From: an uncultured beta proteobacterium
GTDB taxonomy: Bacteria; Pseudomonadota; Gammaproteobacteria; Burkholderiales; Burkholderiaceae_C
DNA: 64,000 nucleotides
Reading direction: 5' to 3'
NCBI GenBank assembly: GCA_903960915.1
Contig: CAJCCO010000037.1
Coordinates: 1-64,000, forward strand
Shown: positions 37,919 to 52,548 of the stretch, one piece after another
How the letters are laid out: each line of letters opens with the position of its first letter
Position numbering within the stretch: position 1 is the stretch's first letter
Translations under genes and position numbers: made by a program
Notes under the pieces: generated by a model
Told to the model about the DNA's origin: nothing
Database searches by the model: none
Seen by the model: the letters and a program-made list of their open reading frames with translations, nothing else

Positions 37919-39124
37919 ATGCCAACTGACCTGACACGCCGCCAATTACTCACCCTGGCCCTGGGCAGTGCCGGTCTGGCCGGCCCGGTGCTGGCACAAA
38001 GCCCTGACTGGGCCGCCCTTGAAGCCAAGGCACGCGGCCAAACCGTGTACTTCAATGCCTGGGCCGGTAGCCCCATCATCAACGCCTATGTGCAATGGGC
38101 TGGCCAAGAGGTTCAACAACGGTTTGGCATCACGCTTGAACACGTCAAGATCAGCGACGCCGCCGAGGTGGTCAAACGCGTGCGCAGCGAAAAAGCGGCC
38201 GGCAAACTCAGCGGTGGCAGCGTGGACATGGTGTGGATCAACGGCGAAAACTTCCTGGCCATGAAACGCGAACAACTGCTGTTTGGCCCGTTTGCCGAGC
38301 GCCTGCCCAGTTTTGCCGCGGTGGACGTGCTGGGCAAACCCACCACCCGCCTGGACTTCAGCGAACCCGTGGAGGGAATGGAGGCGCCTTGGGGCATGGC
38401 CCAGCTGACCTTTTTTGCCGATAAAAAACGCGTGCCCCAAGCCCCCCTGAGCCTGCAGGCGCTGCTGGCCTTCGCCCGAGCCAACCCCGGGCGCGTGAGC
38501 TACCCGCGCCCGCCAGATTTTCATGGCACCACGTTTCTCAAGCAGGCGCTGCTGGAGCTCAACACCGAGCGCAGTGCCTTGTACCGACCCGTCACGCCCG
38601 ACGCTTTGGCCCGGGCCAGCGCGCCGCTGTGGGCTTTTCTGGACGCGCTGCACCCGCAGCTGTGGCGCGCCGGGCGGCAGTTTCCCAACAACGCCTCTGC
38701 CGTGCGCCAAATGATGGCCGACGGCGAGTTGCTGCTGGCCCTGACCTTCAACCCCAACGAAGCCGCCAACGAAATTGCCGCCAAGCGTTTGCCGGCCAGC
38801 GTCTACAGTTTTCAGTTCAGTGCAGGCACCGTAGGCAACACCCACTTTTTGGCCATTCCCTTCAACACCAGCGCCAAGGAAGGCGCCCAGGTGGTGATCA
38901 ATTTCTTGATGAGCCCGCAGGCGCAAGCACGCAAAGCCGATATCACCCACTGGGGCGACCCCACCGTGCTGGCCATGGACAAGTTGGTCCCGGCCGAGCG
39001 CGCCCGATTTGCCAGCGGCAGTCTGCCCGGCCAACTCGACAAAACAGCCCCCGCGCTGCCTGAGCCCCACGGCTCCTGGGTAGACCCGCTGGAAAAAGAA
39101 TGGGCCCGCCGCTACGGCATCTGA
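37919..39124 (+). CDS. ynjB: YnjB-family ABC transporter substrate-binding protein
   Basis: A 401-residue periplasmic binding protein of the YnjB family. The N terminus MPTDLTRRQLLTLALGSAG has a twin-arginine motif followed by a hydrophobic stretch ending LAQ. The mature part opens with GQTVYFNAWAGSPIINAYVQ, typical of YnjB, and later has VDMVWINGENF. Its cognate permease and ATPase (ynjC, ynjD) are 3.3 kb downstream; three other genes intervene. Substrate unknown in the family; thiamine-like compounds have been guessed. The start at 37919 is 10 nt after ftsY. Confidence 0.87.
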   Translation: MPTDLTRRQLLTLALGSAGLAGPVLAQSPDWAALEAKARGQTVYFNAWAGSPIINAYVQWAGQEVQQRFGITLEHVKISDAAEVVKRVRSEKAAGKLSGGSVDMVWINGENFLAMKREQLLFGPFAERLPSFAAVDVLGKPTTRLDFSEPVEGMEAPWGMAQLTFFADKKRVPQAPLSLQALLAFARANPGRVSYPRPPDFHGTTFLKQALLELNTERSALYRPVTPDALARASAPLWAFLDALHPQLWRAGRQFPNNASAVRQMMADGELLLALTFNPNEAANEIAAKRLPASVYSFQFSAGTVGNTHFLAIPFNTSAKEGAQVVINFLMSPQAQARKADITHWGDPTVLAMDKLVPAERARFASGSLPGQLDKTAPALPEPHGSWVDPLEKEWARRYGI

Positions 39125-39133
39125 CGTCTCACT

Positions 39134-39159
39134 TTGACTGTTCCCATTGACTATTCCCG
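39134..39159 (+). repeat. 13-nt tandem repeat between ynjB and the next gene
   Basis: TTGACTGTTCCCA and TTGACTATTCCCG, adjacent units matching at 11 of 13 bases, followed by a third partial TTCCCA. No gene. Confidence 0.65.
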
Positions 39160-39184
39160 TTCCCACACCCCAAAGAGTCGCCCC

Positions 39185-40297
39185 ATGAAAAGAACCCTGC
39201 CCATCCTGAAAACGCTGGCCGCTTTGTTGTTGATGGGTTTGGCGTACCTGCTGCTGTGGCCGGTACCCATTCAGCCGGTGGCATGGACCGCGCCCCAGGC
39301 GCCGGGTTACACCGGGGTGCACACGGTCAACACCAAACTTTCCGCACTGCAAATGATTGACCTCAAGGGCGAAGAAGGCCCCGAGCACATTGTGGTTGGG
39401 CCCGACGGCAAGCTCTACACCACCGTGAGCAGCGGCAATATTTTGCGCATGAACCCCGACGGCAGCGCCCAGGAAGTGTTTGCCAACACCGGCGGACGCG
39501 TGCTGGGTTTTGACTTTGACGCCCAAGGCCACCTGATTGCAGCCGACGCTGTCAAAGGCCTGTTGTCCATCAGCCCAGCGCGTGAGGTACGGGTGCTGAC
39601 CGACAAGGTCAACGGCGACCCCATTCGCTACGCCGACGCTGTGGTGGTGGCTAAAAACGGCAAGCTGTATTTCAGCGATGCCTCCACCCGCTTTGCCCCC
39701 AAGGACTGGGGCGGCACCTTTGAGGCCAGCATTCTGGACATTCTGGAGCAGTCGTCTACCGGCCGCATTCTCGAATTTGACCCCGCCACCCAAACCACCC
39801 GCGTACTCGCCACCGGCCTGAGTTTTGCCAACGGCGTGGCGCTCAACCAAAGCGAGACCAGCCTGTTTGTCAACGAGACCGGCAAGTACCGGGTCTGGAA
39901 GCTCGATGTCACCGCGCAAAACCTGAATCTGATGGCCGCCCCGACGCCCCAGGGCGCCAAGCTGCTGTTTGACAATTTGCCGGGCTACCCCGACAACCTG
40001 ATGCGGGGGCGCGACGGCAAAATATGGCTCGGTTTTGCCAAGCCGCGCAACGCCACCATTGACAACTTCGCCGACAAGCCCTGGCTGCGCGCCCTCACGC
40101 TGCGTTTGCCTCGCGCCCTGTGGCCCATTCCCAAAGCCTACGGCCATGTGATGGCCTTTACCGAAGATGGCCAGGTCGTGGCGGACCTGCAAGACCCGAG
40201 TGGCGCCTACCCCGAAACCACCGCAGTGACCGAAACCGCTGACCGGCTCTACATCCAGAGCCTGCACGCCAAAGGCCTGGGCTGGTTGCCGCGCTGA
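39185..40297 (+). CDS. SMP-30/strictosidine-synthase-like beta-propeller protein
   Basis: A 370-residue protein with one N-terminal membrane anchor (LPILKTLAALLLMGLAYLLL), so the start is at 39185. The remainder is a six-bladed propeller of the APMAP/strictosidine synthase-like group: GPEHIVVGPDGKLYT, YFSDASTRFAPKDWGG, FANGVALNQSE and LPGYPDNLMRGRDGKIWLG are typical. Members often act as lactonases or arylesterases; the activity here cannot be assigned. It lies between ynjB and the esterase gene. Confidence 0.85.
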   Translation: MKRTLPILKTLAALLLMGLAYLLLWPVPIQPVAWTAPQAPGYTGVHTVNTKLSALQMIDLKGEEGPEHIVVGPDGKLYTTVSSGNILRMNPDGSAQEVFANTGGRVLGFDFDAQGHLIAADAVKGLLSISPAREVRVLTDKVNGDPIRYADAVVVAKNGKLYFSDASTRFAPKDWGGTFEASILDILEQSSTGRILEFDPATQTTRVLATGLSFANGVALNQSETSLFVNETGKYRVWKLDVTAQNLNLMAAPTPQGAKLLFDNLPGYPDNLMRGRDGKIWLGFAKPRNATIDNFADKPWLRALTLRLPRALWPIPKAYGHVMAFTEDGQVVADLQDPSGAYPETTAVTETADRLYIQSLHAKGLGWLPR

Positions 40298-40324
40298 GCC
40301 TCAACGCCGCAAAAGGCGCTTCGT

Positions 40325-40347
40325 CGCTGCAGCGCTGCAGCGCTGCG
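40325..40347 (+). repeat. 8-nt tandem repeat upstream of the esterase gene
   Basis: CGCTGCAG, CGCTGCAG, CGCTGCG: nearly three copies of an 8-nt unit, 35 nt before the esterase start. It is self-complementary, so it could fold. Confidence 0.7.
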
Positions 40348-40381
40348 CATTCTGAGTTTTACTTCTTCTGTGAGCCTAGCC

Positions 40382-41107
40382 ATGACACCGCCCTCCTCCT
40401 CCTCCTCCTCCTCTTCTTCTTCCTCCACCTTGCTGCCCCGCGTTGAAATAGAAAGCGCGCCCCACCCCACGGCGGCAGTGATCTGGCTGCACGGTCTGGG
40501 CGCCGACGGCCACGACTTTGCCGCCCTGGTGCCCGAGCTGGACTTGCGCGGCTGTCCGCCCATCCGCTTTGTGTTTCCGCACGCGCCGCAGATGCCGGTC
40601 ACCGTCAATGGCGGCTATGTCATGCCCGCCTGGTACGACATTCTGGGCACCGACCTGGTGAGCCGTCAGGACGCAGCTGGCATTGGCCACTCGGCCCGGG
40701 CCATCAGCGCGCTGGTGGCGCATGAGGTGGCGCGCGGCATTGACTACCGCCACATCGTGCTGGCCGGTTTTTCGCAAGGCTGCGCCATGGCGCTTCACAC
40801 CGGCCTGCGCTTGCCGCACACGCTGGCGGGTGTCATGGCGCTGTCGGGCTACCTGCCGCTGGCCGACACCCTGGCCGCAGAGCGCCACCCCGCCAACGCG
40901 CACACGCCCATTTTCATGGCCCACGGAACACAAGACCCGGTGGTGCTCCCGGCGCGCGGCGAGGCCTCGCGCCAACTGCTCACCTCGCTGGGTTACGCCG
41001 TGCAATGGCACAGCTACCCCATGGGCCACAGCGTGCACCCACAAGAGGTGGCCGATGTCTCGGCGTTCTTGCAACGCGTGCTCGGGCCAGGCCAAGAGGG
41101 CGCCTGA
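40382..41107 (+). CDS. carboxylesterase / phospholipase family hydrolase
   Basis: Alpha/beta hydrolase of the Abhydrolase_2 (EstB-like) group, 241 residues from ATG 40382. Catalytic Ser131 is in GFSQG, Asp in GTQDPVV and His in MGHSVHP. The oxyanion segment is IWLHGLGADGHDF. The N terminus is unusual: MTPP then eleven serines encoded by TCC/TCT triplets, before the conserved fold. Soluble short-chain ester hydrolase by family. Its stop lies 1 nt before the GTG start of the Hsp70 gene. Confidence 0.88.
   Translation: MTPPSSSSSSSSSSSTLLPRVEIESAPHPTAAVIWLHGLGADGHDFAALVPELDLRGCPPIRFVFPHAPQMPVTVNGGYVMPAWYDILGTDLVSRQDAAGIGHSARAISALVAHEVARGIDYRHIVLAGFSQGCAMALHTGLRLPHTLAGVMALSGYLPLADTLAAERHPANAHTPIFMAHGTQDPVVLPARGEASRQLLTSLGYAVQWHSYPMGHSVHPQEVADVSAFLQRVLGPGQEGA
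40394..40426 (+). repeat. TCC/TCT triplet run encoding polyserine
   Basis: Eleven serine codons in order: six TCC, three TCT, two TCC. A triplet microsatellite at the extreme N terminus; length changes would alter the tail but not the frame. Confidence 0.9.
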
Positions 41108-41108
41108 A

Positions 41109-42407
41109 GTGCCCACGGGACAAATAGCGCCCCGCCTGGTGCTGGGCATTGACTTTGGCACCTCCAACTCGGCGGCAGCCGCGGTAGATGCCAGCGGCCA
41201 GTTGCGCGTGATGCCGCTGGAGGCAGACCGGGCCGCCATGCCCACCGCCCTTTTCTTTTGCCACGAGACCCAGCAAACCTTTTATGGCAGCCAGGCCATG
41301 CAGGCTTACCTGGGCGGCACCGAGGGGCGCTTGATGCGCGCCATCAAAAGCCTGCTGGGCAGTGCCCTTATGGACGAGCAAACGGTGGTCAACGGCCAGG
41401 CCATCTCATTTTTTGACATCGTGGTGCTGTTCTTCAAAGCCCTCAAGGCGCGCAGCGAAGCCGCGCTGGGGCATGAGATCTCGCACGCCACACTGGGCCG
41501 CCCGGTGCATTTTGTGGACGACGATGCCAAGCGTGACGCGCTGGCCCAGGCCACGCTGGGGCGCGCGGCGCAAGCGGCTGGCTTTGCGCACATTGCCTTC
41601 GAGCTTGAACCCATTGCCGCCGCCTTTGACTACGAGCAACGCGTGCGCCAAGAAACCACCGCGCTGGTGGTGGACATGGGCGGTGGCACCTCAGACTTCA
41701 CCGTGATACGGCTGGGCCCAAAGCGGCGCCAGCAGGCCGACCGGCGCAGCGACATTTTGGCCACGACTGGCGTGCACCTGGGCGGCACCGACTTTGACCG
41801 CCTGCTGAACCTAGACCACGTGATGCCGCTGCTGGGCTACGGCCACATCGGCAAAGAAGGCCGCGCCGTGCCCAACAGCCTGTTTTTTGAACTCTCCACC
41901 TGGCACCTGATTCACCACGCCTACACGCGTAAAAGCCTGCACTTTGCCCGCGAACTGTGGACGTCCTACGCCGACCTGAGCCTGCACGCCCGGCTGATGG
42001 ATGTGCTGGAAAACCGCGACGGGCACCGTCTGCTAGCCGCCGTGGAGGCCGCCAAGATTGCGTGCTCGGAATCGCAGGGCAGCGCGGCCATTGACCTGCA
42101 CTTTTTGAAAGCTGCGCAGGCCTCCGGTATCAACGGCCATGCCGAACCCACCATCACCGCCCCGGGCATGGCCGCCACCCTGGGCCAGGCGTTGGCGCAG
42201 GTAGTGAAGTGCGCGCGCCAGTGCGTACAAGACGCCGGCCTGGCCACGGTGGATGTGGTGTACCTCACGGGCGGCTCCTCGGTCCTGCAGCCGCTGAGAG
42301 AGGCCATGCAAGCGGCCTACCCGCAGGCCGAGCTGGTGCAGGGCGACCGCTTTGGCGGCGTGGCCGCGGGCTTGGCCTGGGCGGGTTTTCATGCCCAGCG
42401 GAACTGA
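41109..42407 (+). CDS. yegD: Hsp70-family protein, YegD-like
   Basis: A 432-residue actin-fold ATPase of the YegD branch of Hsp70. The N terminus LVLGIDFGTSNSAAAAVDAS is the phosphate-1 loop, ALVVDMGGGTSDFTVI phosphate-2, and YLTGGSSVLQPLREAM the adenosine motif. The substrate-binding lid of DnaK is missing, as in YegD. Start GTG at 41109, one base after the esterase stop, and the gene ends 3 nt before ynjC, so translation is probably coupled to both. Role unknown. Confidence 0.85.
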   Translation: MPTGQIAPRLVLGIDFGTSNSAAAAVDASGQLRVMPLEADRAAMPTALFFCHETQQTFYGSQAMQAYLGGTEGRLMRAIKSLLGSALMDEQTVVNGQAISFFDIVVLFFKALKARSEAALGHEISHATLGRPVHFVDDDAKRDALAQATLGRAAQAAGFAHIAFELEPIAAAFDYEQRVRQETTALVVDMGGGTSDFTVIRLGPKRRQQADRRSDILATTGVHLGGTDFDRLLNLDHVMPLLGYGHIGKEGRAVPNSLFFELSTWHLIHHAYTRKSLHFARELWTSYADLSLHARLMDVLENRDGHRLLAAVEAAKIACSESQGSAAIDLHFLKAAQASGINGHAEPTITAPGMAATLGQALAQVVKCARQCVQDAGLATVDVVYLTGGSSVLQPLREAMQAAYPQAELVQGDRFGGVAAGLAWAGFHAQRN

Positions 42408-42410
42408 GCC

Positions 42411-44129
42411 ATGCACCGGACAGACCGCGTAGGCGCCCTGTTGCTGCTCGCAGCCATGGGCGTGCCGATGGGCTGGGCCACCTGGGCCGCGTTGGCGCAA
42501 GCTTTCAACCCCAGCGCCTGGCGTGACCTGCAGGCCGACCCGCAAACCTGGCCCGCACTGCTGCTGTCCTTGCAAACCGGCCTGCTGGCCAGTGCTTTGT
42601 CGGTGCTGCTGACGGCCTGGATTTTGTCGCGTAGTTTTCCTGGTCCCTTGTGGGCACGGCTGGTAAAAAGTTTGGGGCCCATGCTGGCCGTCCCGCATGC
42701 CGCCTGGGCTATTGGCCTGGCGTTTTTGATGGCGCCCAGCGGCTGGCTGCTGCGCGCCTTCTCGCCCTGGGCCACCGGCTTGGAGGCGCCGCCGCCCTGG
42801 CCCACGACACAAGACCCCTGGGGCCTGGGCCTGACGCTGGCACTGGTGACCAAGGAGGTGCCGTTTTTGCTCTGGGCCGCCACCACGCAGCTGCAACGCC
42901 CGGACGTGGCCCTGCGCCTGAGCCGCGAGCTGCTGCAGGCCCGCACCCTGGGCTACGCGCCGCAGACGGCCTGGTGGCACGTGGTCTGGCCCCAGCTGCT
43001 GGCGCGGCTGCATTGGCCCATGCTGGCGGTACTGGCCTATAGCCTGACCGTGGTGGACATGGCGCTGGTGATTGGCCCAACCTCCCCCCCCACTTTGGCC
43101 GTGCTGGCCTGGCACTGGCTGCAAGATGCCGACCTGGCGCAAAACGCCCAGGGTGCCGTGGCGGCCTGGCTGTTGGCCGCTATGGTGGCGGGGTCATTGG
43201 CGCTGGCGTTGTTGGCCGCGCAACTGCTGCGCCGCGTACCGGCTTGGCGCGCGCACCGCACCCTGGGCCACAGAGGCGCCCAGCGACCCACTCACCCATC
43301 ACGGCAATCTCGCAACAAAACGAACAGCAGCTGGGCCGCGCTGGTGGGCCTGTATGCGCTGGTGATGCTGGCCATGGCCGTGGGCAGCGTGGCGGGACTG
43401 TGGCCTTTTCCGGCGCTGTGGCCAGAACAACTGAGTTGGGCCGCCTGGGCATCAGTGGCCACCAGCCTGGACACGCTTTACACCACGCTCTTTTTGGGCC
43501 TGGCCAGTGCCGGGGTGGCGCTGCTGTGGTCGCTGGCCTGGCTGGAGTGGGCGCCACCGCGCTGGGACGCAGCCTTACGCCGGCTGGTTTACCTGCCGCT
43601 GGTGCTGCCCCCGGTGCTGTGGGTGGTGGGCGTGCACGGCCTGACCTTGCACTGGGGACTGGACAGCCACTGGAGCGGGCTGTGGCTGGCGCACACCCTG
43701 GCGACCCTGCCCTATGTGCTGATTGCGCTGAGCCCGGCCTACACCGGTTTTGACCCGCGCCTGGCCCAAGTGGCGGCCTCGCTGGGGCAAAGCCGGTTGG
43801 TGTTTTTATGGCGTGTGAAATGGCCTTTGCTGCGCGCCGCACTGGCCGCCAGTTTTGCCGTGGGCTTTGCCGTTAGCGTGACGCAGTACCTGCCCACCCT
43901 GTTTATTGGCGGTGGCCGCTACGCCACCTTGACAACCGAGGCCGTCACGCTGGCCGCTGGCGCCCAGCGCTCGCTGACCTCGGCCTACGCCTGGCTGCAG
44001 TGGCTGCTGCCGGTGCTCTTGTTTGCGCTGGCAGCCCGGCTGGGCCTGGCACGGCGTTTCATCAGCACCGCTCAACCTGAAAGCAGAACAAACAAACAAA
44101 ACAAGACAGACAGGACAATGACGCCATGA
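42411..44129 (+). CDS. ynjC: YnjC-family ABC transporter permease, fused double domain
   Basis: A 572-residue permease with two binding-protein-dependent transport domains in one chain, about twelve membrane segments. The first coupling loop region is near REL-LQARTLGYAPQTAWWHV, the second near AQVAASLGQSRLVFLWRVKW. The length and duplicated layout match YnjC. The C-terminal tail (RTNKQNKTDRT) is encoded by an AACA/ACAG-rich run. Partners: ynjB (substrate binding) and ynjD (ATPase), whose start overlaps the ynjC stop as ATGA. Confidence 0.87.
   Translation: MHRTDRVGALLLLAAMGVPMGWATWAALAQAFNPSAWRDLQADPQTWPALLLSLQTGLLASALSVLLTAWILSRSFPGPLWARLVKSLGPMLAVPHAAWAIGLAFLMAPSGWLLRAFSPWATGLEAPPPWPTTQDPWGLGLTLALVTKEVPFLLWAATTQLQRPDVALRLSRELLQARTLGYAPQTAWWHVVWPQLLARLHWPMLAVLAYSLTVVDMALVIGPTSPPTLAVLAWHWLQDADLAQNAQGAVAAWLLAAMVAGSLALALLAAQLLRRVPAWRAHRTLGHRGAQRPTHPSRQSRNKTNSSWAALVGLYALVMLAMAVGSVAGLWPFPALWPEQLSWAAWASVATSLDTLYTTLFLGLASAGVALLWSLAWLEWAPPRWDAALRRLVYLPLVLPPVLWVVGVHGLTLHWGLDSHWSGLWLAHTLATLPYVLIALSPAYTGFDPRLAQVAASLGQSRLVFLWRVKWPLLRAALAASFAVGFAVSVTQYLPTLFIGGGRYATLTTEAVTLAAGAQRSLTSAYAWLQWLLPVLLFALAARLGLARRFISTAQPESRTNKQNKTDRTMTP
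44085..44117 (+). repeat. AACA-rich low-complexity run at the end of ynjC
   Basis: AGAACAAACAAACAAAAC then AAGACAGACAGGAC: 4-nt AAAC and ACAG repeats covering the last codons of ynjC and leading into ynjD. Confidence 0.6.
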
Positions 44130-44758
44130 GTCTGGACATTACCCTGCACCGACTGGCCACGCGCCAGGGTCACACCCTGCTGCACGCCCTGCAGCTGCGG
44201 GTGCCTGCGGGCGTCATCCACACGGTGATGGGCGAGAGTGGCTCGGGCAAGTCCAGCCTGCTCAGCGCGGTCTGCGGCACCTTGCCCGAGGGCCTGGTGT
44301 TTGAGGGCGAAATCAGTTTGCAAGGACGGCGCATTGAGCAGTTGCCCACCGAGCAGCGGCGCGTGGGTTTGCTGTTTCAAGACGACTTGTTGTTTGCCCA
44401 CATGACTGTGCGCGAGAACCTGCTGTTTGCCGTGCCGGCAGGCCCGCGCGCAGAACGCGAGGCCCAGGTCAGCGCCGGGCTGGACAGCCTGGAGATGCGC
44501 GACTTTGCCAATGCAGACCCGGCCACGCTGTCAGGCGGGCAACGCACCCGGGTGGCCCTGTTGCGTGCCCTGTTGGCGCGCCCGCAAGCCTTGCTGCTTG
44601 ACGAGCCGTTTGCCAAACTTGACGCCGCGCTGCGCGAGCGCATGCGCCACTGGGTGTTTGCGCTGGCGCGCCAGCAAGGCATGCCGGTGCTGCTGGTGAC
44701 GCACGATGCCGCAGATGTGGCCGATGCGGCACACTTGACCCATCTACACACCGTTTAA
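44126..44758 (+). CDS. ynjD: YnjD-family ABC transporter ATP-binding protein
   Basis: A 210-residue ABC ATPase. Walker A GESGSGKSS, Q-loop LFQDDLLFAHMTV, signature LSGGQRTRVALLRAL, Walker B ALLLDEPFAKLD and switch VTHDAAD are all intact. It has no accessory C-terminal domain, as in YnjD. Start overlaps the ynjC stop. Energises the YnjBC importer. Confidence 0.9.
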   Translation: MSLDITLHRLATRQGHTLLHALQLRVPAGVIHTVMGESGSGKSSLLSAVCGTLPEGLVFEGEISLQGRRIEQLPTEQRRVGLLFQDDLLFAHMTVRENLLFAVPAGPRAEREAQVSAGLDSLEMRDFANADPATLSGGQRTRVALLRALLARPQALLLDEPFAKLDAALRERMRHWVFALARQQGMPVLLVTHDAADVADAAHLTHLHTV

Positions 44759-44780
44759 GCCCGCTGCCTGCCTCGCCACG

Positions 44781-44800
44781 CTTCACCTCACTTCACCTCA
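44781..44800 (+). repeat. perfect 10-nt tandem repeat upstream of ynjF
   Basis: CTTCACCTCA occurs twice without a gap, 25 nt before the ynjF start, followed by further CA-rich sequence. Confidence 0.75.
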
Positions 44801-44824
44801 CACGCACTCAACGCACCGCACACC

Positions 44825-45451
44825 ATGCTTGACCGCTTTGCCACCGCCCTGCTGCGCCCCGCTGTGACGGCTGGCGCGCGCGGCTTGGTACGCGCCGGCG
44901 TGGGCGCCAATACCGTCACACTGGCGGGCTTTGCGCTGGGGCTGTGCGCGGCGTGGCTCATTGCCCAGGAGCACTACCTGGAGGGCGCGCTGGTCATCCT
45001 GTTGTCGCGGCTGTGCGACGCGCTGGACGGCGCGGTGGCGCGCCTCACCCAACCCAGTGATGCCGGGGGCTTTCTCGATATTGCGCTGGACTTTTTGTTT
45101 TACGCCAGCATTCCCCTGGCCTTTGCCTGGGCCGACCCGGTGGCTAACGCCTTGCCCGCTGCGGTGCTGCTGGCGGCCTTCATGGGCACCAGCACCAGTT
45201 TTCTGGCGTTTGCCGTGCTGGCGGCCAAGCGCGGCATGGTCAACACCCAGTACCCCGACAAAGCGTTTTACTTTTTGGGCGGCATGACCGAGGCCACCGA
45301 GACCCTGGCCTTCTTTGTGGCCATGTGTATTTGGCCCGAGGCGTTTAGTGGTCTGGCCTACTGGTTTGCTGCGCTGTGCGGCTTCACGGTGCTCACGCGC
45401 CTTTGGTGGGGCTGGCAGACCTTGCGCGCTGACCCGCAGAACCTGCCCTAG
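44825..45451 (+). CDS. ynjF: CDP-alcohol phosphatidyltransferase family protein, YnjF-like
   Basis: A 208-residue membrane enzyme with the CDP-alcohol transferase motif DALDGAVARLTQPSDAGGFL followed by DIALD, fitting DG-x2-AR-x8-G-x3-D-x3-D. About five membrane helices. It would transfer a phosphatidyl group or similar from a CDP-linked donor to an alcohol; donor and acceptor are unknown for YnjF. In E. coli ynjF also follows ynjBCD(E), so the assignment rests on motif and order. Confidence 0.87.
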   Translation: MLDRFATALLRPAVTAGARGLVRAGVGANTVTLAGFALGLCAAWLIAQEHYLEGALVILLSRLCDALDGAVARLTQPSDAGGFLDIALDFLFYASIPLAFAWADPVANALPAAVLLAAFMGTSTSFLAFAVLAAKRGMVNTQYPDKAFYFLGGMTEATETLAFFVAMCIWPEAFSGLAYWFAALCGFTVLTRLWWGWQTLRADPQNLP

Positions 45452-45468
45452 GCCGGCATCCATCCACC

Positions 45469-47664
45469 ATGAAAAAATTTAAACCCGTCATTGCTCTGCT
45501 GCTTCTGGGCCTGCTGCTGGGTGCCTGGGTGGCACTGGACGCCGGCCGCTACCTGAGCCTGGACTACCTGCAACAAAGCCATACCGAGTTCGCCCGTCTG
45601 TACGCGCTGCACCCAGCCAGCGTGCTGGGGGCCTACCTGGCGCTGTACGTGCTGGTGTGCGCGCTGTCGCTACCCGGCGCCACCTTGCTAACGCTGGCTG
45701 GTGGTGCGGTGTTTGGCTTGTGGTGGGGCACGTTGGTGGTGTCGTTTGCCTCCAGCCTGGGGGCCACGCTGGCTTTTCTGGTGGCGCGCCATGTGCTGCG
45801 CGACAGCCTGGAGGCCCGCTTTGGCGCGCGCCTGGCCGAGTTCAACCAGGGCGTGGCACGCCAGGGCGCCTTGTACCTGTTCACCCTGCGCCTGGTGCCC
45901 CTGGTGCCGTTTTTCATCGTCAACCTGGGCATGGGTTTGACCCGCATGCGCACCCGCACCTTTTATGGCGTGAGCCAACTCGGCATGCTGGCCGGCACGC
46001 TGGTGTATGTGAACGCGGGCACGCAACTGGGCCGCCTCTCCAGCTTGCAAGCTATTTTGAGCCCCGCCCTGTTGGGCTCCTTCGTGCTGCTGGCCAGTTT
46101 CCCCTGGCTGGCGCGGCAAGGCCTGGGCTGGGTGCAACAGCGCCGGCTTTACGCCCGCTGGCAAGCCCAGAAGCCGCGCCGCTTTGACCGCAACCTGATC
46201 GTCATAGGCGCTGGCGCGGGCGGTCTGGTGTCGGCCTATATTGCTGCGGCGGTGAAGGCCCGGGTGACGCTGGTGGAAATGGGCGCCATGGGCGGCGACT
46301 GCCTGAACTATGGCTGCGTGCCCAGCAAGGCGCTGATTAAAAGCGCGCGGCTGGCGCACCAGATGCGCCACGGCGCACGCTATGGCCTGAGCGATACCGA
46401 GCCGGTGTTCCCTTTCAAAAACGTGATGCAGCGGGTGCAAGCCACGATTGCCGCCATTGCGCCACACGACAGCGTGGCGCGCTACACCGGCTTGGGCGTG
46501 GAAGTGCTGCAAGGCCATGCCCGGCTCATCAACCCCTGGACGGTGGAGATTACCGCCCCCGCCGTGGCCGGGCAAAGCGCACCGTCGGTGCAACGCCTGA
46601 GCAGCCGCGCCATTGTGCTGGCCACGGGCGCGCGCCCTTTGCTGCCGCCTTTCCTGAAAGACGCACAAGCCCAGGGCTTTAACGTGCTGACCAGCGACAC
46701 GCTGTGGCAGCACCTGGGCCAGCTTGAGACGCCCCCGCAGCGCCTGCTGGTGCTGGGCGGCGGCCCCATTGGTTGCGAGCTGGCGCAAAGCCTGGCGCGA
46801 CTGGGCGCGCAGGTGACCGTGCTGGAACAGGCGCCGCGCCTGTTGCTGCGCGAGGACGAAGACGTGAGCGCTCTGGTGCAAGACGCGCTGCAACAAGACG
46901 GTGTGCGGGTGCTGACCGGCCACACCGCGCTGCAGTGCGAACGTGACGCCGACGGCCACCCGCAACTGCGGGTGCAGCACCAGGGGCAAACGCTGCACCT
47001 GGGCTTTGAAACCCTGCTGTGCGCACTGGGACGCGAGGCCCGGCTGACCGGCCTGGGTCTGGAAGAACTGGGCATTCCCTGCGAGCGCACCGTCACCACC
47101 AACGCCTACCTGGAAACGTTGTACCCCAATATCTACGCCGCCGGTGACGTGGCAGGCCCCGAGCAGTTCACCCATGTGGCGGCGCACCAGGCCTGGTACG
47201 CCACGGTCAACGCGCTGTTTGGTGGCGTCAAGAAATTCAAGGTGGACACGCGCGTGCTACCGCGCACCACCTTCACCGACCCCGAGGTGGCGCGCGTGGG
47301 CTTGAACGAAACACAGGCGCGCGCGCAACAGGTGGCCTTTGAGGTCAGCCGCTTTGAATTGGCCGAGCTGGACCGGGCCATTGCCGACAGCGACACGCAA
47401 GGCTTTGTCAAAGTGCTGACGCGCCCGGGCAGCGACCAAATTTTGGGCGTGACACTGGTAGGCCGCCACGCCGGGGACCTGCTGGCCGAGTATGTGCTGG
47501 CCATGAAACACGGCCTGGGCCTGAACAAAATATTGGGCACGGTGCACAGCTACCCCACACTGGCCGAGGCCAACAAATACGCCGCCGGCGTGTGGAAGCG
47601 CGCCCACCAGCCTGAGCGGTTGCTGCGCTGGGCCAGGCGCTACCATGACTGGCGCCGGGGCTAA
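45469..47664 (+). CDS. fusion of a TVP38/DedA-like membrane domain and a flavin-disulfide reductase
   Basis: A 731-residue two-domain protein. Residues 1 to about 225 are a polytopic VTT/TVP38 (SNARE-associated Golgi) domain, with LALYVLVCALSLPGATLLTL and LRLVPLVPFFIVNLGMGLT. From about 240 on it is a class I pyridine nucleotide-disulfide oxidoreductase. The FAD loop is VIGAGAGGLVSAYIAA and the redox-active disulfide is Cys278/Cys283 in GGDCLNYGCVPSK. An NAD(P)H loop LVLGGGPIGCELAQSL and a dimer-interface HSYPTLAE dyad follow. Closest by motif to mercuric reductase/lipoamide dehydrogenase, without an N-terminal metal-binding domain. Substrate unknown. Confidence 0.9.
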   Translation: MKKFKPVIALLLLGLLLGAWVALDAGRYLSLDYLQQSHTEFARLYALHPASVLGAYLALYVLVCALSLPGATLLTLAGGAVFGLWWGTLVVSFASSLGATLAFLVARHVLRDSLEARFGARLAEFNQGVARQGALYLFTLRLVPLVPFFIVNLGMGLTRMRTRTFYGVSQLGMLAGTLVYVNAGTQLGRLSSLQAILSPALLGSFVLLASFPWLARQGLGWVQQRRLYARWQAQKPRRFDRNLIVIGAGAGGLVSAYIAAAVKARVTLVEMGAMGGDCLNYGCVPSKALIKSARLAHQMRHGARYGLSDTEPVFPFKNVMQRVQATIAAIAPHDSVARYTGLGVEVLQGHARLINPWTVEITAPAVAGQSAPSVQRLSSRAIVLATGARPLLPPFLKDAQAQGFNVLTSDTLWQHLGQLETPPQRLLVLGGGPIGCELAQSLARLGAQVTVLEQAPRLLLREDEDVSALVQDALQQDGVRVLTGHTALQCERDADGHPQLRVQHQGQTLHLGFETLLCALGREARLTGLGLEELGIPCERTVTTNAYLETLYPNIYAAGDVAGPEQFTHVAAHQAWYATVNALFGGVKKFKVDTRVLPRTTFTDPEVARVGLNETQARAQQVAFEVSRFELAELDRAIADSDTQGFVKVLTRPGSDQILGVTLVGRHAGDLLAEYVLAMKHGLGLNKILGTVHSYPTLAEANKYAAGVWKRAHQPERLLRWARRYHDWRRG

Positions 47665-47688
47665 GCCCTGGCCATTAGCCAACCATTT

Positions 47689-47721
47689 GCCACTAACTAG
47701 CCACCGACTAGCCACTGACCT
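47689..47721 (+). repeat. 11-nt tandem repeat, three copies
   Basis: GCCACTAACTA, GCCACCGACTA, GCCACTGACCT: three adjacent 11-nt units between the fusion gene and the DUF3047 gene. Related words (GCCATTAGCCA) occur just before. Confidence 0.75.
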
Positions 47722-47747
47722 GAACCCAAGCGCCCAAGTTCCTGCCT

Positions 47748-48554
47748 ATGCTTCATCTCGCCTCATTTTTTCGCCGCTGGTTTGTTCGGTCCTGCTGCTC
47801 TGTTGCGGAGTGGCGGCGCGCCCTGGCCGGCCTGTGCGCCGGCCTGCTGCTGGCAGGCGCGCAGGCGCAAAGCCTGCTCGCACCGCTGGTCAGTGCCAGT
47901 ACAAGTGCGGCCGCCTCGGTACCCGGCGAACCCTGGCGCGTGGTGGGCGTGGGCAAAGACAGCATTGCCGCGACGCGCTTTGACCTGGTGGCGCTGGACG
48001 GCGCCCCCGTGTTGCGCCTGCGCACCGAGCGCTCGTATGCCAATTTAGTGCATGACTTGCCGGCACTGCGCCTGGCACCCAACGCGGTGCTGCGCTGGCG
48101 CTGGCGCCTGGACCAGGGCCTGCCACTGGCCGACCTGCGGCGTAAAAGTGGTGACGATTCGCCCCTCAAAGTCTGCGCCCTGTTTGACTTGCCGGCTTCA
48201 CAACTCAGTTGGGGCGAACGCAGCCTGCTGCTGCTGGCGCGCAGCCTGAGCAAAGAAACCCTGCCGGGCGCCACCCTGTGCTACATCTGGGACACGCAAC
48301 TGCCCGAAGGCACGGTACTCGCCAACGCCTACAGCCAGCGGGTGCGCTACCTGGTGCTCAACGGGGCCAACGCACCGCTCAAGCAATGGGCCAGCCACGA
48401 GCGCCGTCTGAGCGCTGATTTTTTGCAAGCTTTTGGCCACGAGTCGCGCAGCGTGCCGCCGCTGGTGGCGGTGCTGGTGGGGGCCGATGCGGACAACACC
48501 GGGGGCAGCAGCCTGGCTTACGCCAGTGACCTGGTCTTGATCAACACGCCATAA
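47748..48554 (+). CDS. exported DUF3047 protein
   Basis: A 268-residue protein with a long signal segment (WRRALAGLCAGLLLAGAQAQ, cleavage near residue 41). The mature part fits the DUF3047 family: LRTERSYANLVHDLP, LRWRWRLDQGLPLADLR, KSGDDSPLKVCALFDLP and AYASDLVLI near the end. The fold resembles carbohydrate-binding beta sandwiches; function unknown. It lies 10 nt before the SelD-partner oxidoreductase and is probably co-transcribed with it. Confidence 0.82.
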   Translation: MLHLASFFRRWFVRSCCSVAEWRRALAGLCAGLLLAGAQAQSLLAPLVSASTSAAASVPGEPWRVVGVGKDSIAATRFDLVALDGAPVLRLRTERSYANLVHDLPALRLAPNAVLRWRWRLDQGLPLADLRRKSGDDSPLKVCALFDLPASQLSWGERSLLLLARSLSKETLPGATLCYIWDTQLPEGTVLANAYSQRVRYLVLNGANAPLKQWASHERRLSADFLQAFGHESRSVPPLVAVLVGADADNTGGSSLAYASDLVLINTP

Positions 48555-48564
48555 GGAGCACGCC

Positions 48565-49701
48565 ATGACCGGTCTGATGAAAGGCGCCATGCAGTCGCAC
48601 AAACACCTGGTGCTGCTGGGCGCAGGGCATGCGCACGTGCACTTGCTGGCGCAGGCCACGCGCCAGTCTTTCAACGGTGCGCGCGTGACGCTGGTGGCGC
48701 CGTTTGCGCGGCAGCTGTATTCGGGCATGGTGCCGGGCTTTGTGGCGGGCCATTACGCCTTGGACGACTGCGTGATTGCGCTGGCGCCGCTGCTGGAAAA
48801 AAACGGCATCCGCTGGCTGCAACAAAGCGTGACCGCCCTGGACGCCCAAAAGCGGCGGCTGCGCCTGGACGATGGTACGGATCTGGCCTACGACTGGCTC
48901 TCGGTCAACACCGGGCCAGTGCAAGACCGGCAGCTGCTGGAAACCAGCCTGCCCGGCGTGCGCGAACACGGTCTGTTTGTGCGCCCGATTGAAGCGTTTT
49001 GCCACCTCTGGCCGCAGGTGCTGGCGCTCGCAGCGCAACGCACGCTGCGCCTGGCCGTCATAGGCGGCGGCGCGGCGGGCCTTGAGCTGGTGATGGCGGT
49101 GCGCCAGCGCCTGCCCACGGCCTCGGTGACGCTGATTGCGGGTGAAGCCGGCTTGGGCACCAACTACCCCGATGGGGTGCAGCAGCGCCTTCGCTCGGCC
49201 TTGAAGGCGCGGCGCATCACGGTCTTGAACGAACGCGCCACCGCCTTGCACGCTGGTGAAATTGAGCTGGGCAACGGGGCGCGTCTGCTGTGCGATGTGC
49301 CTCTGGTGGCCACCGGTGCGCAGGCCCCGGCCTGGCTGCAGGGCAGCGACCTGGCGCTGGACGCGCAGGGTTTTATCGCGGTGGACGCCTGCCTGCGCTC
49401 TACCAACCACCCCGAGGTGCTGGCCGCAGGCGACGTGAGCGCTCGCCAGGACCGTCCCCTGGCGCGCAGCGGTGTGTATGCCGTGCGCGCCGGCCCGGCG
49501 CTGGCGCGCAACCTGGAAGCCCTGGTGGCCGGTCAACCCTTGCGCGAGCACCAACCACCCATCCACACGCTGAACCTGCTGTCCTGTGGCGACCAGCATG
49601 CCATTGCCACTTGGGGCAAGTTCAGCGCACAAGGGCGCTGGGTGTGGTGGTTCAAAGACTGGATAGACCGCTCGTTTGTGCAGCGCTTTCGCCGCCACTG
49701 A
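48565..49701 (+). CDS. pyridine nucleotide-disulfide oxidoreductase family protein (SelD-partner type)
   Basis: A 378-residue FAD/NAD(P)H protein of the NADH dehydrogenase-2-like fold. FAD loop LVLLGAGHAHVHLL; NAD loop LAVIGGGAAGLELVMAV; ATG(A/G)D-like segments VATGAQAPAWL and VLAAGDVSARQDRPLA. This matches the subfamily that in many bacteria is fused to the N terminus of SelD or encoded beside it, and here selD lies 0.6 kb away. AGGAG 7 nt before the ATG fixes the start. The proposed role in selenium reduction or delivery is inference. Confidence 0.83.
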   Translation: MTGLMKGAMQSHKHLVLLGAGHAHVHLLAQATRQSFNGARVTLVAPFARQLYSGMVPGFVAGHYALDDCVIALAPLLEKNGIRWLQQSVTALDAQKRRLRLDDGTDLAYDWLSVNTGPVQDRQLLETSLPGVREHGLFVRPIEAFCHLWPQVLALAAQRTLRLAVIGGGAAGLELVMAVRQRLPTASVTLIAGEAGLGTNYPDGVQQRLRSALKARRITVLNERATALHAGEIELGNGARLLCDVPLVATGAQAPAWLQGSDLALDAQGFIAVDACLRSTNHPEVLAAGDVSARQDRPLARSGVYAVRAGPALARNLEALVAGQPLREHQPPIHTLNLLSCGDQHAIATWGKFSAQGRWVWWFKDWIDRSFVQRFRRH

Positions 49702-49857
49702 AGGCGGCTGTCGCCTACTTGATGGCGGGGCGCAGGCTGTTAACGCTACCATCACCAAACCTTGAATTTCCGCACCCGCCGCGCCAGTTGCATTCCCTTA
49801 ACCTGGCGCACCCTTGATCACCACCTACCGGCCCCCTTCGGGCACAGAAAGAACCCC

Positions 49858-50250
49858 ATGACGATTGCCAATTACTGTGTGCTGGCCGCTTGTTTGCTGC
49901 CTACCTTGACCGCCGGCCTGGCCAAAGCCGGCAGCGCGAAACAGCCCCTGCGTGAAGGCGGTTACGACAACCGCAGCCCACGGGAATGGGCCGCGCGCCT
50001 GGGCGGCTGGAAGGCGCGCGCCATTGCGGCACAAAACAACGGCTTTGAGGCCCTGCCGCTGTTCATTGCAGCCGTCCTGCTGGCACAGCAAGCCCAGGCT
50101 GACCAGGCCCGCATTGACCTGCTGGCCATGACCTTTATTGCCCTGCGCCTGGCCTATGTGGCGTCTTACCTGATGAACCTGGGTACAGTGCGCACGCTGA
50201 TCTGGACAGCTGCCGTGGCCAGCAACATCGCGCTGCTGCTGATGGCGTGA
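49858..50250 (+). CDS. MAPEG family membrane protein
   Basis: A 130-residue protein with four membrane helices, starting at ATG 49858 (MTIANYCVLAACLLPTLTAG). The segment RAIAAQNNGFEALPLFIAAV corresponds to the MAPEG glutathione-binding signature. MAPEG enzymes act on lipophilic substrates with glutathione, but many bacterial members are uncharacterised. It is convergent with selD, with a pentanucleotide repeat between them. Confidence 0.85.
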   Translation: MTIANYCVLAACLLPTLTAGLAKAGSAKQPLREGGYDNRSPREWAARLGGWKARAIAAQNNGFEALPLFIAAVLLAQQAQADQARIDLLAMTFIALRLAYVASYLMNLGTVRTLIWTAAVASNIALLLMA

Positions 50251-50263
50251 TGAGAATGGCCGA

Positions 50264-50320
50264 GGCTTGGCTTGGCTTAATTGGCTTGGCTTGGCTTGGC
50301 TTGGCTTGTCTTAACTTGAC
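50264..50320 (+). repeat. pentanucleotide GGCTT repeat between the MAPEG gene and selD
   Basis: Three GGCTT units, a four-base AATT interruption, five more GGCTT, then degenerate GTCTT, AACTT, GACTT. It ends exactly at the selD stop codon. It lies between convergent genes, so any terminator would have to include it; no hairpin is evident. Confidence 0.92.
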
Positions 50321-51415
50321 TTAAAGCAGCACCAGCTTGGCGCCCGCGCTGGCGGGCACGATCTGGCCCATGTCGCGCGCATCGTCAAAGCCGTGTTGTT
50401 TGAAGATGGCCAGCACCGCCTGCACGGCCTCTGGCGCACATGACACCAGCAAGCCGCCGCTGGTTTGCGGGTCGCTCAGCAAGGCCTGGTCGACGGCAGA
50501 AAAACGGGTGGGCAGACTGATCTCATGGCCGTAACCGGCCCAATTGCGCCCAGACGCGCCGGTCACCATGCCCTGCGCGGCCAACTCCCGCACCCCGCTG
50601 AGCAAGGGCACCTGGTCCCAGTTCACCTGTACCGTACAGCCCGCGCCGCGCGCTATTTCCAGCGCGTGGCCCGCCAGGCCAAAGCCAGTCACATCGGTTA
50701 GCGCGTGCACGCCGTCCAGTGCCGCCAGCTCAGGGCCGGGGGTGTTGAGTTGGGTGGTGACGCGAATCATCTGGGCGTAGCCCGCCGCGTCGAGTTTTTC
50801 TTTTTTCAGCGCCGCCGACAAGATGCCCACGCCCAGCGGTTTGCCCAGAATCAGGCGGTCGCCCACGCGCGCATCGGCATTGCGCTTGACGCGTTTGGGG
50901 TGCACCAGACCCAAGGCCACCAGACCATAAATGGGCTCCACCGAGTCGATGGTGTGGCCCCCGGCAATCGGAATGCCCGCCGCGCGGCAAACCGAAGCGC
51001 CACCTTCCAAAATCTTGCCAATGGTCTCGGTGGACAGCACATTGATGGGCATGCCCACCAGCGCCAGCGCCATGATGGGTGTGCCCCCCGTGGCGTAGAC
51101 GTCGGAGATGGCGTTGGTGGCGGCAATGCGGCCAAAGTCAAACGGGTCGTCCACGATGGGCATGAAGAAGTCGGTGGTGGCAATCAGCGCCTGCTCGTCG
51201 TTGAGCTTGTAGACGGCTGCGTCGTCCGCCGTCTCAATGCCCACCATCAATTCCTTGGGAATGGGCATGGCAGGCATGCCTTTCAAAATGTCTGACAACA
51301 CGCCCGGAGCAATCTTGCAGCCACAGCCGCCGCCGTGGGACAGGCTGGTGAGGCGGGGTTGGCTTAGGGCCGTGGCGCCCGTTGAAAGGGCAGCGCTGGA
51401 AGTTGTAGTGCTCAT
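50321..51415 (-). CDS. selD: selenide, water dikinase (selenophosphate synthase)
   Basis: Makes selenophosphate from selenide and ATP, the selenium donor for selenocysteine and 2-selenouridine. It has 364 residues from ATG 51415. The active-site loop is LSHGGGCGCKIAPGVL, with Cys31 (equivalent to E. coli Cys17) and Lys34, so this is the cysteine form, not a selenoprotein. ATP and metal residues are in TADDAAVY, TTDFFMPIVDDPFDFG and AGGHTIDSVEPIYG. No selA, selB, selC or mnmH is in the window. Divergent from rpoH. Confidence 0.95.
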   Translation of the reverse strand: MSTTTSSAALSTGATALSQPRLTSLSHGGGCGCKIAPGVLSDILKGMPAMPIPKELMVGIETADDAAVYKLNDEQALIATTDFFMPIVDDPFDFGRIAATNAISDVYATGGTPIMALALVGMPINVLSTETIGKILEGGASVCRAAGIPIAGGHTIDSVEPIYGLVALGLVHPKRVKRNADARVGDRLILGKPLGVGILSAALKKEKLDAAGYAQMIRVTTQLNTPGPELAALDGVHALTDVTGFGLAGHALEIARGAGCTVQVNWDQVPLLSGVRELAAQGMVTGASGRNWAGYGHEISLPTRFSAVDQALLSDPQTSGGLLVSCAPEAVQAVLAIFKQHGFDDARDMGQIVPASAGAKLVLL

Positions 51416-51548
51416 AAGCTTTTGTAGTTTGGGGGGTGTCTTGCTGGGGTGCGCCATTATCCGCAAACGCGTAAACGTACTAACCCGCCTGCTTCAGCGG
51501 CTGCGCCTGACAAATATCAATAACTATGAACGGGATTGAACTTATGTC

Positions 51549-51575: not shown

Positions 51576-51606
51576 TATTGCGGTCATGACGAAAAGGAGT
51601 TCTGGT

Positions 51607-52548
51607 ATGACGACTCAAACAGGCGTTTCAGGGGCCGTGCTGACGGTGGCTAACCCTTGGTCCTTGGTGCCCCCGCTGGGCAATTTGGAGGCCTATATCT
51701 CGGCGGCTAACCGCCTGCCGATGCTCACCCTGGAAGAAGAACAGGCGTTTTCCCGCAAGTTTCGGGCAGACAACGACCTGGACGCCGCCGGAAAACTGGT
51801 CTTGTCCCACCTGCGCCTGGTGGTGTCGGTGGCGCGCCAGTACCTGGGCTATGGCCTGCCGCACGGAGATTTGATTCAGGAAGGCAATGTGGGCCTGATG
51901 AAGGCGGTCAAGCGTTTCGACCCAGACCAGGGCGTGCGCCTGGTGAGCTACGCCATGCACTGGATCAAAGCCGAGATTCATGAATATATTTTGAAAAACT
52001 GGCGCATGGTGAAGGTGGCCACGACCAAGTCACAGCGCAAACTGTTTTTCAACCTGCGCTCCATGAAGCAGCGTTACAAGTCTGAAGATGCAGCGGCAGA
52101 TGCCGGTACGCACCGCGAAACCTTGAATGAAACACAGATCAACGCCATGGCGCGTGAGCTCAAGGTCAAGCGCGAAGAGGTGATTGAGATGGAAACCCGT
52201 TTGTCGGGGGGCGATGTGATGCTCGACCCCGGTTCGTCAGACGATGGCGAAGACGCGTTTGGCCCGATTGCCTACCTCACCGATGCCAACCACGAGCCCA
52301 CGGCCATGCTTGAAGCGCGTGAGCGCGACGTGCTGGCCAGCGACGGCATTGCGACGGCGCTTGATGCGCTGGACGACCGCAGCCGGCGCATTGTGGAAGA
52401 GCGCTGGCTCAAGGTCAACGACGACAACTCAGGCGGCATGACCCTGCATGACCTGGCGGCCGAGTACGGTGTCAGCGCCGAGCGCATTCGCCAGATTGAA
52501 GTGGCAGCGATGAAGAAGATGAAAAAGGCGCTGGCAGAATTTGCCTGA
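51607..52548 (+). CDS. rpoH: heat-shock sigma factor RpoH (sigma 32)
   Basis: RNA polymerase sigma factor for heat-shock genes. The product has 313 residues from ATG 51607, which has AAGGAG 8 nt upstream. Region 1.2/2 includes NLEAYISAANRLPMLTLEEE and DLIQEGNVGLMKAVKRFDP; region 2.4 HWIKAEIHEYILKNWRMVKV; the RpoH box lies in TTKSQRKLFFNLRS; region 4 ends YGVSAERIRQIEVAAMKKM. A perfect CIRCE sits in its leader, and a terminator follows it. Confidence 0.97.
   Translation: MTTQTGVSGAVLTVANPWSLVPPLGNLEAYISAANRLPMLTLEEEQAFSRKFRADNDLDAAGKLVLSHLRLVVSVARQYLGYGLPHGDLIQEGNVGLMKAVKRFDPDQGVRLVSYAMHWIKAEIHEYILKNWRMVKVATTKSQRKLFFNLRSMKQRYKSEDAAADAGTHRETLNETQINAMARELKVKREEVIEMETRLSGGDVMLDPGSSDDGEDAFGPIAYLTDANHEPTAMLEARERDVLASDGIATALDALDDRSRRIVEERWLKVNDDNSGGMTLHDLAAEYGVSAERIRQIEVAAMKKMKKALAEFA

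Follow-up and report, generated by a model that had tools for sequence, protein, structure and literature searches.

A conserved ynjBCD-linked membrane redox operon near selD in a Burkholderiales genome, with a possible selenium or metalloid association

The 64 kb window analysed here is the whole stretch from position 1 to 64,000 of contig CAJCCO010000037.1 (assembly GCA_903960915.1), from an uncultured beta proteobacterium of the Burkholderiaceae_C. Between 37919 and 51466 it carries the genes of a YnjBCD-type ABC transporter, a run of membrane and redox proteins and selD, which a first-pass annotation had joined into one putative module for selenium uptake, reduction and activation; profile and domain matches place all the named genes at the coordinates given there. 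The gene ynjB (37919..39124, plus strand) starts 10 bp downstream of ftsY and encodes a periplasmic solute-binding protein (SBP_bac_8, PF13416; NF008633, 522 bits against a curated cut-off of 203). The permease gene ynjC (42411..44129, plus strand) follows after 3.3 kb on the same strand; its product is a homologue of E. coli YnjC (201 bits) and matches NCBIfam permease families, all under cut-off. The ATPase gene ynjD (44126..44758, plus strand; PF00005) overlaps ynjC by 4 bp. Binding protein, permease and ATPase are all encoded, and in many relatives ynjB lies immediately 5′ of ynjC.

Downstream of the transporter genes lie a ynjF-like gene for a CDP-alcohol phosphatidyltransferase (44825..45451, plus strand; PF01066, with NF040950 and NF045883 under cut-off and 178 bits against E. 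coli YnjF), a gene fusing a VTT (TVP38/DedA-like) membrane domain to an FAD disulfide oxidoreductase (45469..47664, plus strand; PF09335, PF07992 and PF02852; hereafter the VTT fusion), a DUF3047 gene (47748..48554, plus strand; PF11249, 175 bits) and a gene for a TIGR03169 ‘Nterm_to_SelD’ flavoprotein (48565..49701, plus strand; 332 bits, curated cut-off 310). From ynjC to TIGR03169 the genes are tightly spaced, the 4-bp overlap being followed by gaps of 66, 17, 83 and 10 bp. In a consensus scan, promoter-like sites numbered 0, against an expectation of 1.6 from shuffled sequence, and the 22 terminator-like sites were near chance (16.4 in shuffles, standard deviation 4.6). The selD gene (50321..51466, minus strand; NF002098/PRK00943) reaches the equivalog score at 547 bits, with its catalytic Cys17, Lys20 and Asp residues in place. 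It is convergent to the operon, 70 bp past the gene of a MAPEG-family protein, and is therefore not an operon member, contrary to its earlier placement inside the module.

Conservation was assessed in a family sample (120 genomes from 120 genera of the window's family, with TIGR03169 scored at E<=1e-50) and in 229 genomes drawn from across the class (the class sample); the window genome (G000; G and L numbers are our handles for genomes and loci) and G049 belong to both. TIGR03169 was found in 46/120 and YnjB in 24/120 family genomes, and all 24 YnjB genomes carry TIGR03169, against 22/96 of the others (Fisher p=7e-13, ignoring kinship). The class sample, with YnjB in 8, TIGR03169 in 30 and SelD in 49 of 229 genomes, returned TIGR03169 in 7/8 YnjB genomes against 23/221 others. 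With genomes collapsed to families, TIGR03169 is present in 5/6 with YnjB and in 18 out of at least 156 without it; the family total is a lower bound taken from the family codes shown. The link also holds among SelD-positive genomes (7/7 against 20/42 in the class and 24/24 against 19/82 in the family). YnjB and TIGR03169 share a contig in 10/24 family genomes, 7–29 kb apart, and lie on separate contigs in 14/24.

Gene order was read from stretches of the sampled genomes and from the best 80 of 582 YnjB loci, 37 of which have at least 5 kb upstream and at least 9 kb downstream, with gene presence scored by thresholds chosen in this analysis. Among these 37 adequately flanked loci, ynjC is present in 29, ynjF in 22, the VTT fusion in 15 and TIGR03169 in 13; genes unscored at some loci may sit past the flank, because the window's lineage splits ynjB from ynjC. 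The order ynjB-ynjC-ynjD-ynjF-VTT fusion-(DUF547)-DUF3047-TIGR03169 is found in G173, G144, G157, G190 and G163 and in loci of Rhizobacter (L135), Rubrivivax (L145) and Piscinibacter (L151), among others, while Thiothrix eikelboomii (L180) and G291 have the order TIGR03169-VTT fusion-ynjB-ynjC-ynjD-ynjF. A gene fusing TIGR03169 to SelD faces ynjBCD in Hydrogenophaga flava (L154) and in L169, with TIGR04282/TIGR04283 intervening in L169; ynjF is followed by TIGR03169 in L110, and at loci of Tolumonas and of Rhodoferax-like bacteria (L168, L174, L178 and L179) the VTT fusion gene faces the ynj genes or diverges from them. Alphaproteobacterial loci carry neither the VTT fusion nor TIGR03169; most have ynjBCDF, and L172 and L175 have ynjB alone. 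The ynj genes, the VTT fusion, DUF3047 (often with DUF547) and TIGR03169 recur together beyond close relatives, in beta- and gammaproteobacteria. A conserved linkage thus extends well past close relatives, as the co-occurrence in both samples and the several gene orders show, in support of the first-pass annotation.

Part of this gene set was also found with a different partner. ArsS (TIGR04167) occurs in 13/120 family genomes, all 13 with TIGR03169, against 33/107 otherwise. Among the 46 TIGR03169 genomes, one carries both ArsS and YnjB (G140), 12 carry ArsS only, 23 YnjB only and 10 neither, in a count that ignores kinship. The VTT fusion enzyme, DUF547, DUF3047 and TIGR03169 form a core common to the two operon types; this common core and the near-exclusion make ArsS and YnjB look like alternative, near-exclusive partners of it. 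The operon of ArsS, TIGR04282 and TIGR04283, named for ‘arsenosugar biosynthesis’, shares with the window type the VTT fusion enzyme, DUF547, DUF3047 and TIGR03169, and the window type has ynjBCDF where the arsenosugar-type operon has ArsS. The exclusion concerns ArsS only: relatives of TIGR04283 and TIGR04282 lie near ynj genes in L112 (G208), L123, L152, L169, G146 and G213. Among the matches listed from the open-access PMC literature, none gives a YnjBCD function, the combined operon, its selenoneine-gene neighbourhood or the ArsS alternation. The families are known individually; the near-exclusive partnering of one core by ArsS or YnjB is new.

The enzyme half of the VTT fusion protein, previously labelled a flavin reductase, is instead a pyridine-nucleotide-disulfide oxidoreductase of the lipoamide-dehydrogenase/glutathione-reductase type with the motif GGDCLNYGCVPSK, and its redox cysteine pair reads CLNYGC. 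Mercuric reductase (MerA) was considered and rejected (331 bits against a cut-off of 454). A published fusion of COG0398 DedA to PF07992/PF02852 has an architecture equal to that of the 45469..47664 protein; the passage describing it gives only an association with aerobic metabolism, and a reference title cited in the same paper points to a probable link between DedA and selenite resistance (PMC10127716).

The TIGR03169 protein of the window is 378 aa long and has no SelD domain; hence, it is not a TIGR03169–SelD fusion. Its model fold resembles NDH-2, SQR and FSP1 in a fold search. Fusions of NADH dehydrogenase-like proteins to SelD are mentioned in PMC2398784 and PMC4561486, and a passage in PMC2432076 proposes the COG1252 (NADH-dehydrogenase-like) domain on SelD as the reductant of a selenium compound. 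The window protein belongs to the same flavoprotein family and lies 0.6 kb from selD; unlike the fusion, it is encoded by a separate gene, on the strand opposite to selD, and falls in the operon-type standalone group of the TIGR03169 tree. Two rows of that tree (L066 and L034) end at a locus or contig end and are labelled standalone because the sequence ends at that boundary.

TIGR03169 is coupled to SelD at least when fused. The TIGR03169–SelD fusion is present in 17 of the 46 family TIGR03169 genomes (G139 being judged from a frame that ends at a contig end), and C17, K20, D51, D68 and D91 (E. coli SelD numbering) are retained in 16/16 aligned fused SelD domains. The fusions adjoin MnmH (L190, L191, L192 and L195) or SenB (L196, L197 and family loci), and the fusion is the sole SelD match in 15 family genomes, all 15 of which have an mnmH match, some fragmentary. 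Counts for standalone TIGR03169 leave fusions out, because one gene would otherwise count twice, and those of the order sample also leave out G002, where the match reaches the contig end. SelD accompanies standalone TIGR03169 in 26/26 genomes of the order sample against 45/70 without it, and in 6/9 against 22/199 of the class sample. In G255 (L201), mnmH, selD and standalone TIGR03169 are consecutive. Of the 26 family genomes with both a standalone TIGR03169 and a separate selD, 8 have the two within 20 kb of each other, 3 have them on the same contig at distances of 65 kb to 4.5 Mb, and 15 have them on separate contigs. The copy near selD is the operon copy in four of the eight (G000, G049, G149 and G162). 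As for ynjB, eight genomes have it on the contig that carries SelD, and in six of these (G000, G049, G163, G212, G111 and G146) the distance is about 30 kb or less; TIGR03169–SelD fusions are near ynjB in L139, L154 and L169.

A selenium island of variable completeness, made up of SenA, SenB, separate or fused SelD and a TIGR04553-type ABC transporter, lies near the VTT fusion-DUF547-DUF3047-TIGR03169 core in several relatives. It accompanies the core together with ynjFDCB in G049, G163, G212 and G111, the core in G141 and G209, where YnjB is missing or the stretch is cut short, and the ArsS version in G149 and G162. The G049 island is without a TIGR04553-type gene and that of G163 without the TIGR04553-type binding protein. 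Matches above cut-off are those of SenA, SenB and TIGR04553 in L216, SenA and TIGR04553 in L219 and SenA in L054; the other calls are made by similarity to the L216 proteins. The neighbourhood is thus selenium-related in several relatives, in line with the first-pass annotation, both through fusions with intact SelD residues and through SenA, SenB, SelD and/or TIGR04553-type genes nearby. The selenoneine cluster SenA-SenB-SenC/SelD (PMC10891094) is a known system that sits near the same core in several relatives. In one such stretch (L097, G149; 1-17.9 kb), SelD-SenB-SenA and a TIGR04553-type ABC stand beside TIGR03169-DUF3047-DUF547-VTT fusion and ArsS-TIGR04283-TIGR04282; the similar stretch of G162 (L098) starts inside the ABC genes, and SelD and SenB are seen in L097 only.

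Across the 120 family genomes selD tracks mnmH (both in 103, neither in 12, discordant in 5). The window genome carries mnmH on another contig (G000:C94:85078-85998, 355 bits), so the selenouridine trait is present; selA returned no match at E<=1e-40 in this assembly (98.8% complete), so the selenocysteine trait is not. Selenocysteine was rejected as the purpose of selD on this ground, G190 being the sole selA carrier among the 24 YnjB family genomes.

In E. coli, the ynj genes do lie near selD, as the first-pass annotation stated: ynjF and selD are separated by 5.6 kb containing nudG, ynjH, gdhA, ynjI and topB, selD being six genes past ynjF, and the DedA-family genes ydjX and ydjZ precede ynjABCD. 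The E. coli stretch (ydjXYZ-ynjABCD/ynjE/ynjF) resembles the window in its related YnjB, YnjC, YnjD and YnjF, in DedA/VTT genes upstream and in the nearness of selD. It differs in its separate DedA-family genes, the ferredoxin-type YdjY, the AhpD-like YnjA and the sulfurtransferase YnjE, and it is without the VTT-disulfide-reductase fusion, DUF3047 and TIGR03169, all three of which the window has. YnjBCD (COG4134-4136) is called an uncharacterised transport system in a passage of PMC9207381, the FNR regulon list of PMC3688515 includes E. coli ydjXYZ-ynjABCD, and the BaeR regulon list of PMC2731931 includes ynjABCD; these listings are as compatible with redox and envelope stress as with selenium.

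Our tentative explanation, which could well prove wrong, is that the genes form a conserved operon for redox chemistry and import at the membrane, occurring mostly in proteobacteria that use selenium and associated with selenium or metalloid chemistry. From enzyme class only, we infer its reduction steps. At the membrane, the VTT fusion enzyme would act with NAD(P)H and its cysteine pair on a chalcogen or metalloid bound to a thiol, in the selenium case perhaps a selenotrisulfide such as selenodiglutathione, and reduce it, and the TIGR03169 protein (NDH-2-like, NAD(P)H/FAD) would feed or protect the reduced product. In selenium users, this product would supply selenide to SelD, and in the window genome's host the selenophosphate would then serve MnmH. 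YnjBCD would import an organic solute, selenium uptake as such not being part of the proposal, and YnjF might transfer an imported alcohol onto CDP-diacylglycerol. The interpretation of the first-pass annotation is partly supported overall.

Several findings weigh against such an operon being tied to selenium. The genomes of the family sample are phylogenetically non-independent. No conserved cysteine pair is present in TIGR03169 in a survey of 79 sequences, and the window protein clusters with operon-type standalone forms, apart from the fused clade, in a quick tree with many open forks. Standalone TIGR03169 shows no SelD enrichment in the family sample (26/29 against 63/74, p=0.75), and in the other four genomes that have it near selD the copy concerned is not that of the operon: G101, G110 and G126 carry it as a second copy, and in G114 it stands beside ftsY. 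The window selD itself is explained by MnmH and tRNA 2-selenouridine, because selD tracks mnmH and the genome carries mnmH; SelD, once taken as the end of the module, is unnecessary as its product step on the same grounds, and a selD that adjoins the operon proves little alone. The linkage of ynjBCD to selD on which the first-pass annotation depends is, moreover, only half borne out: among the best 80 of 582 loci, of which only 37 are adequately flanked, a separate selD was never scored less than 10 kb from ynjB, and in G190 and G157 selD is 0.9 and 4.5 Mb from ynjB on one very large contig. Nor is SelD always present. G264 has YnjB without SelD or TIGR03169, G429 (listed as 100% complete) has an ArsS-type operon with VTT fusion and TIGR03169 and no SelD, G373 and G387 have TIGR03169 without SelD, G182 (an 85%-complete draft) has the core without SelD, and G153 and G178 have weaker TIGR03169 matches adjoining ftsY and no SelD. 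Finally, SenA, SenB and TIGR04553-type proteins gave no match in the 64 kb window, the rest of the genome not having been searched for them, which sets the window apart from the selenoneine-type neighbourhoods.

A possible, if doubtful, alternative is that the genes serve head-group import and phospholipid synthesis: YnjBCD would import a small alcohol, possibly phosphorylated, YnjF would place it on CDP-diacylglycerol in the manner of phosphatidylinositol-phosphate-type synthases, the VTT domain (DedA superfamily, with lipid scramblase/flippase relatives) would move the lipid, the flavoproteins would protect or modify it, and the selenium genes would be adjacent for another reason. The most widely kept part of the gene set, ynjBCD-ynjF, suits this proposal, as it occurs in Alpha-, Beta- and Gammaproteobacteria and in E. 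coli, with ynjF accompanying ynjB in the 22 of 37 loci counted above; so do the DedA/VTT genes that go with ynjBCD separately in E. coli and as a fusion elsewhere. In the YnjF translation we read DxxDGxxAR...GxxxDxxxD, which we take to be the CDP-alcohol phosphatidyltransferase motif. The best NCBIfam matches of YnjF are archaetidylinositol/phosphatidylinositol phosphate synthases, an inositol-phosphate-type resemblance that agrees with the proposal; however, YnjF falls under the curated cut-off of every listed synthase. The TIGR03169/SelD association and the disulfide reductase are left unexplained.

The cargo of YnjBCD bears on the same question. YnjB gave a confident model (pLDDT 92.5) with a solute-binding-protein fold, whose fold neighbours bind iron, metal-citrate, hexose phosphates, GABA or polyamines; the hexose-phosphate binders would accord with head-group import. 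For two further fold neighbours, we take the ligands to be 2-aminoethylphosphonate (STM0429) and pyridoxal phosphate (P5PA). Because these neighbours bind very different ligands, the cargo of YnjB is not fixed and there is no pointer to selenium. At the limits used, phmmer returned no solved homologues of YnjB or YnjF. A table in PMC9397018 includes YnjB in a list of polyamine binding protein homologues.

Arsenic or metalloid handling is an unlikely explanation, in which the core of VTT fusion, DUF547, DUF3047 and TIGR03169 would serve arsenosugar-type chemistry, with either ArsS/TIGR04282/TIGR04283 or YnjBCDF supplying the metalloid substrate. It draws on the presence of TIGR03169 in every ArsS family genome, on the near-exclusion of ArsS and YnjB and on the TIGR04283/TIGR04282 relatives near ynj genes at the loci listed above. 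Against this, ‘arsenosugar’ is a library name for TIGR04282/TIGR04283, the exclusion count ignores phylogeny, the window module showed no arsenic gene and TIGR04167 had no match in the window genome at E<=1e-40.

Inherited synteny, by which common descent would keep the genes together in the window's family with no joint pathway, is just as unlikely. One family makes up much of the sample and the ftsY-ynjB adjacency is common to the window and several relatives, as synteny would predict; it is already weakened by gene orders that change outside the family, Gammaproteobacteria included, and by the class-wide co-occurrence at genome level.

We also regard as improbable the module of the first-pass annotation, in which an organoselenium compound or selenium oxyanion enters through YnjBCD, is reduced by the flavoenzymes and is activated by SelD. 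In its favour, SelD occurs in 24/24 family and 7/8 class YnjB genomes, against 82/96 and 42/221 of the others, and selenium genes are close by in several relatives. On the other side, five YnjB carriers (G111, G130, G209, G212 and G215) have a separate candidate TIGR04553-type selenium ABC beside senA and/or senB, and YnjBCD would therefore be redundant there. TIGR04553 (PhnD-like, putative selenate transporter) is not among the two NCBIfam matches of the window YnjB, which places it outside that family; G264 has YnjB without SelD; selD lies outside the operon and is matched by mnmH; and the E. coli ynj genes are listed under FNR and BaeR, with no link to selenium in the regulon lists of PMC3688515 and PMC2731931. 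Together with the varied ligands of the YnjB fold neighbours, the separate ABC transporters leave selenium uptake by YnjBCD unsupported.

Very unlikely, finally, is an undescribed pathway in which YnjBCD-YnjF, the VTT-disulfide reductase, DUF3047/DUF547 and TIGR03169 build a lipid or head group that bears a chalcogen or metalloid and keep it reduced. The head group would be imported by YnjBCD in one branch and, in the other, made by ArsS together with the TIGR04282/TIGR04283 transferases; YnjF would attach it, the VTT domain would move it and the flavoproteins would maintain it, with SelD/SenB acting as the selenium source in selenium users.

Taken as a redox-and-import operon, the gene set provides the uncharacterised YnjBCD of E. 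coli with testable partners in YnjF, a VTT-domain disulfide reductase, DUF3047 and TIGR03169, associates it at genome level with TIGR03169 and SelD and shows it alternating with ArsS operons. It also defines a set of genes for knock-outs, with membrane selenium/metalloid chemistry as the first thing to probe.

Three genes intervene between ynjB and ynjC in the window. The first encodes a strictosidine-synthase-like (SSL_N/Str_synth) protein (39134..40297, plus strand; domain match), neighbours ynjB in some related loci only and is probably a lineage-specific insertion outside the module. It is followed by a carboxylesterase-like gene (40370..41107, plus strand), which follows ynjB in some Rhodoferax-like loci and whose start (window 40370-40450) encodes a simple-sequence run of about 11 serines, and by an Hsp70/YegD-like gene (41104..42407, plus strand; start uncertain) that ends 3 bp before ynjC; both names were read off the translations. 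Four Rhodoferax-like loci (L104, L108, L109 and L141) have no ynjC within 10 kb of ynjB. The MAPEG-family membrane protein (49858..50250, plus strand; PF01124), encoded 156 bp past the operon, had no match in the maps of the other loci examined.

Further observations concern ynj loci elsewhere; the names of their additional genes were assigned from sequence. Eight loci (L155-L162; Alphaproteobacteria, plus two loci named only bacterium or Proteobacteria) have ynjB, ynjC and ynjF without VTT fusion or TIGR03169, and in all eight an ornithine-decarboxylase-like gene follows the ynj genes; L155, L158 and L160 have an FG-GAP/UnbV-like gene 5′ of ynjB. G302 (L188 and L189) carries two divergent ynjBCD copies, each with a DUF547 gene and a TonB-dependent-receptor-like gene of about 800 aa, which hints that the cargo of YnjBCD may be scarce or chelated.

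A TIGR03169 relative under the family cut-off adjoins ftsY, or lies one gene off, in L203 (G153), L204 (G178), L206 (G114) and L210 (G154); ftsY also precedes ynjB in the window. In G005, G012, G046, G055, G060 and G090 the SelD frames contain one in-frame TGA, as a selenocysteine-containing SelD would show. In the window, about 120 bp separate the selD start from a divergent gene for an RpoH-like heat-shock sigma factor (51586-52548, named from sequence).

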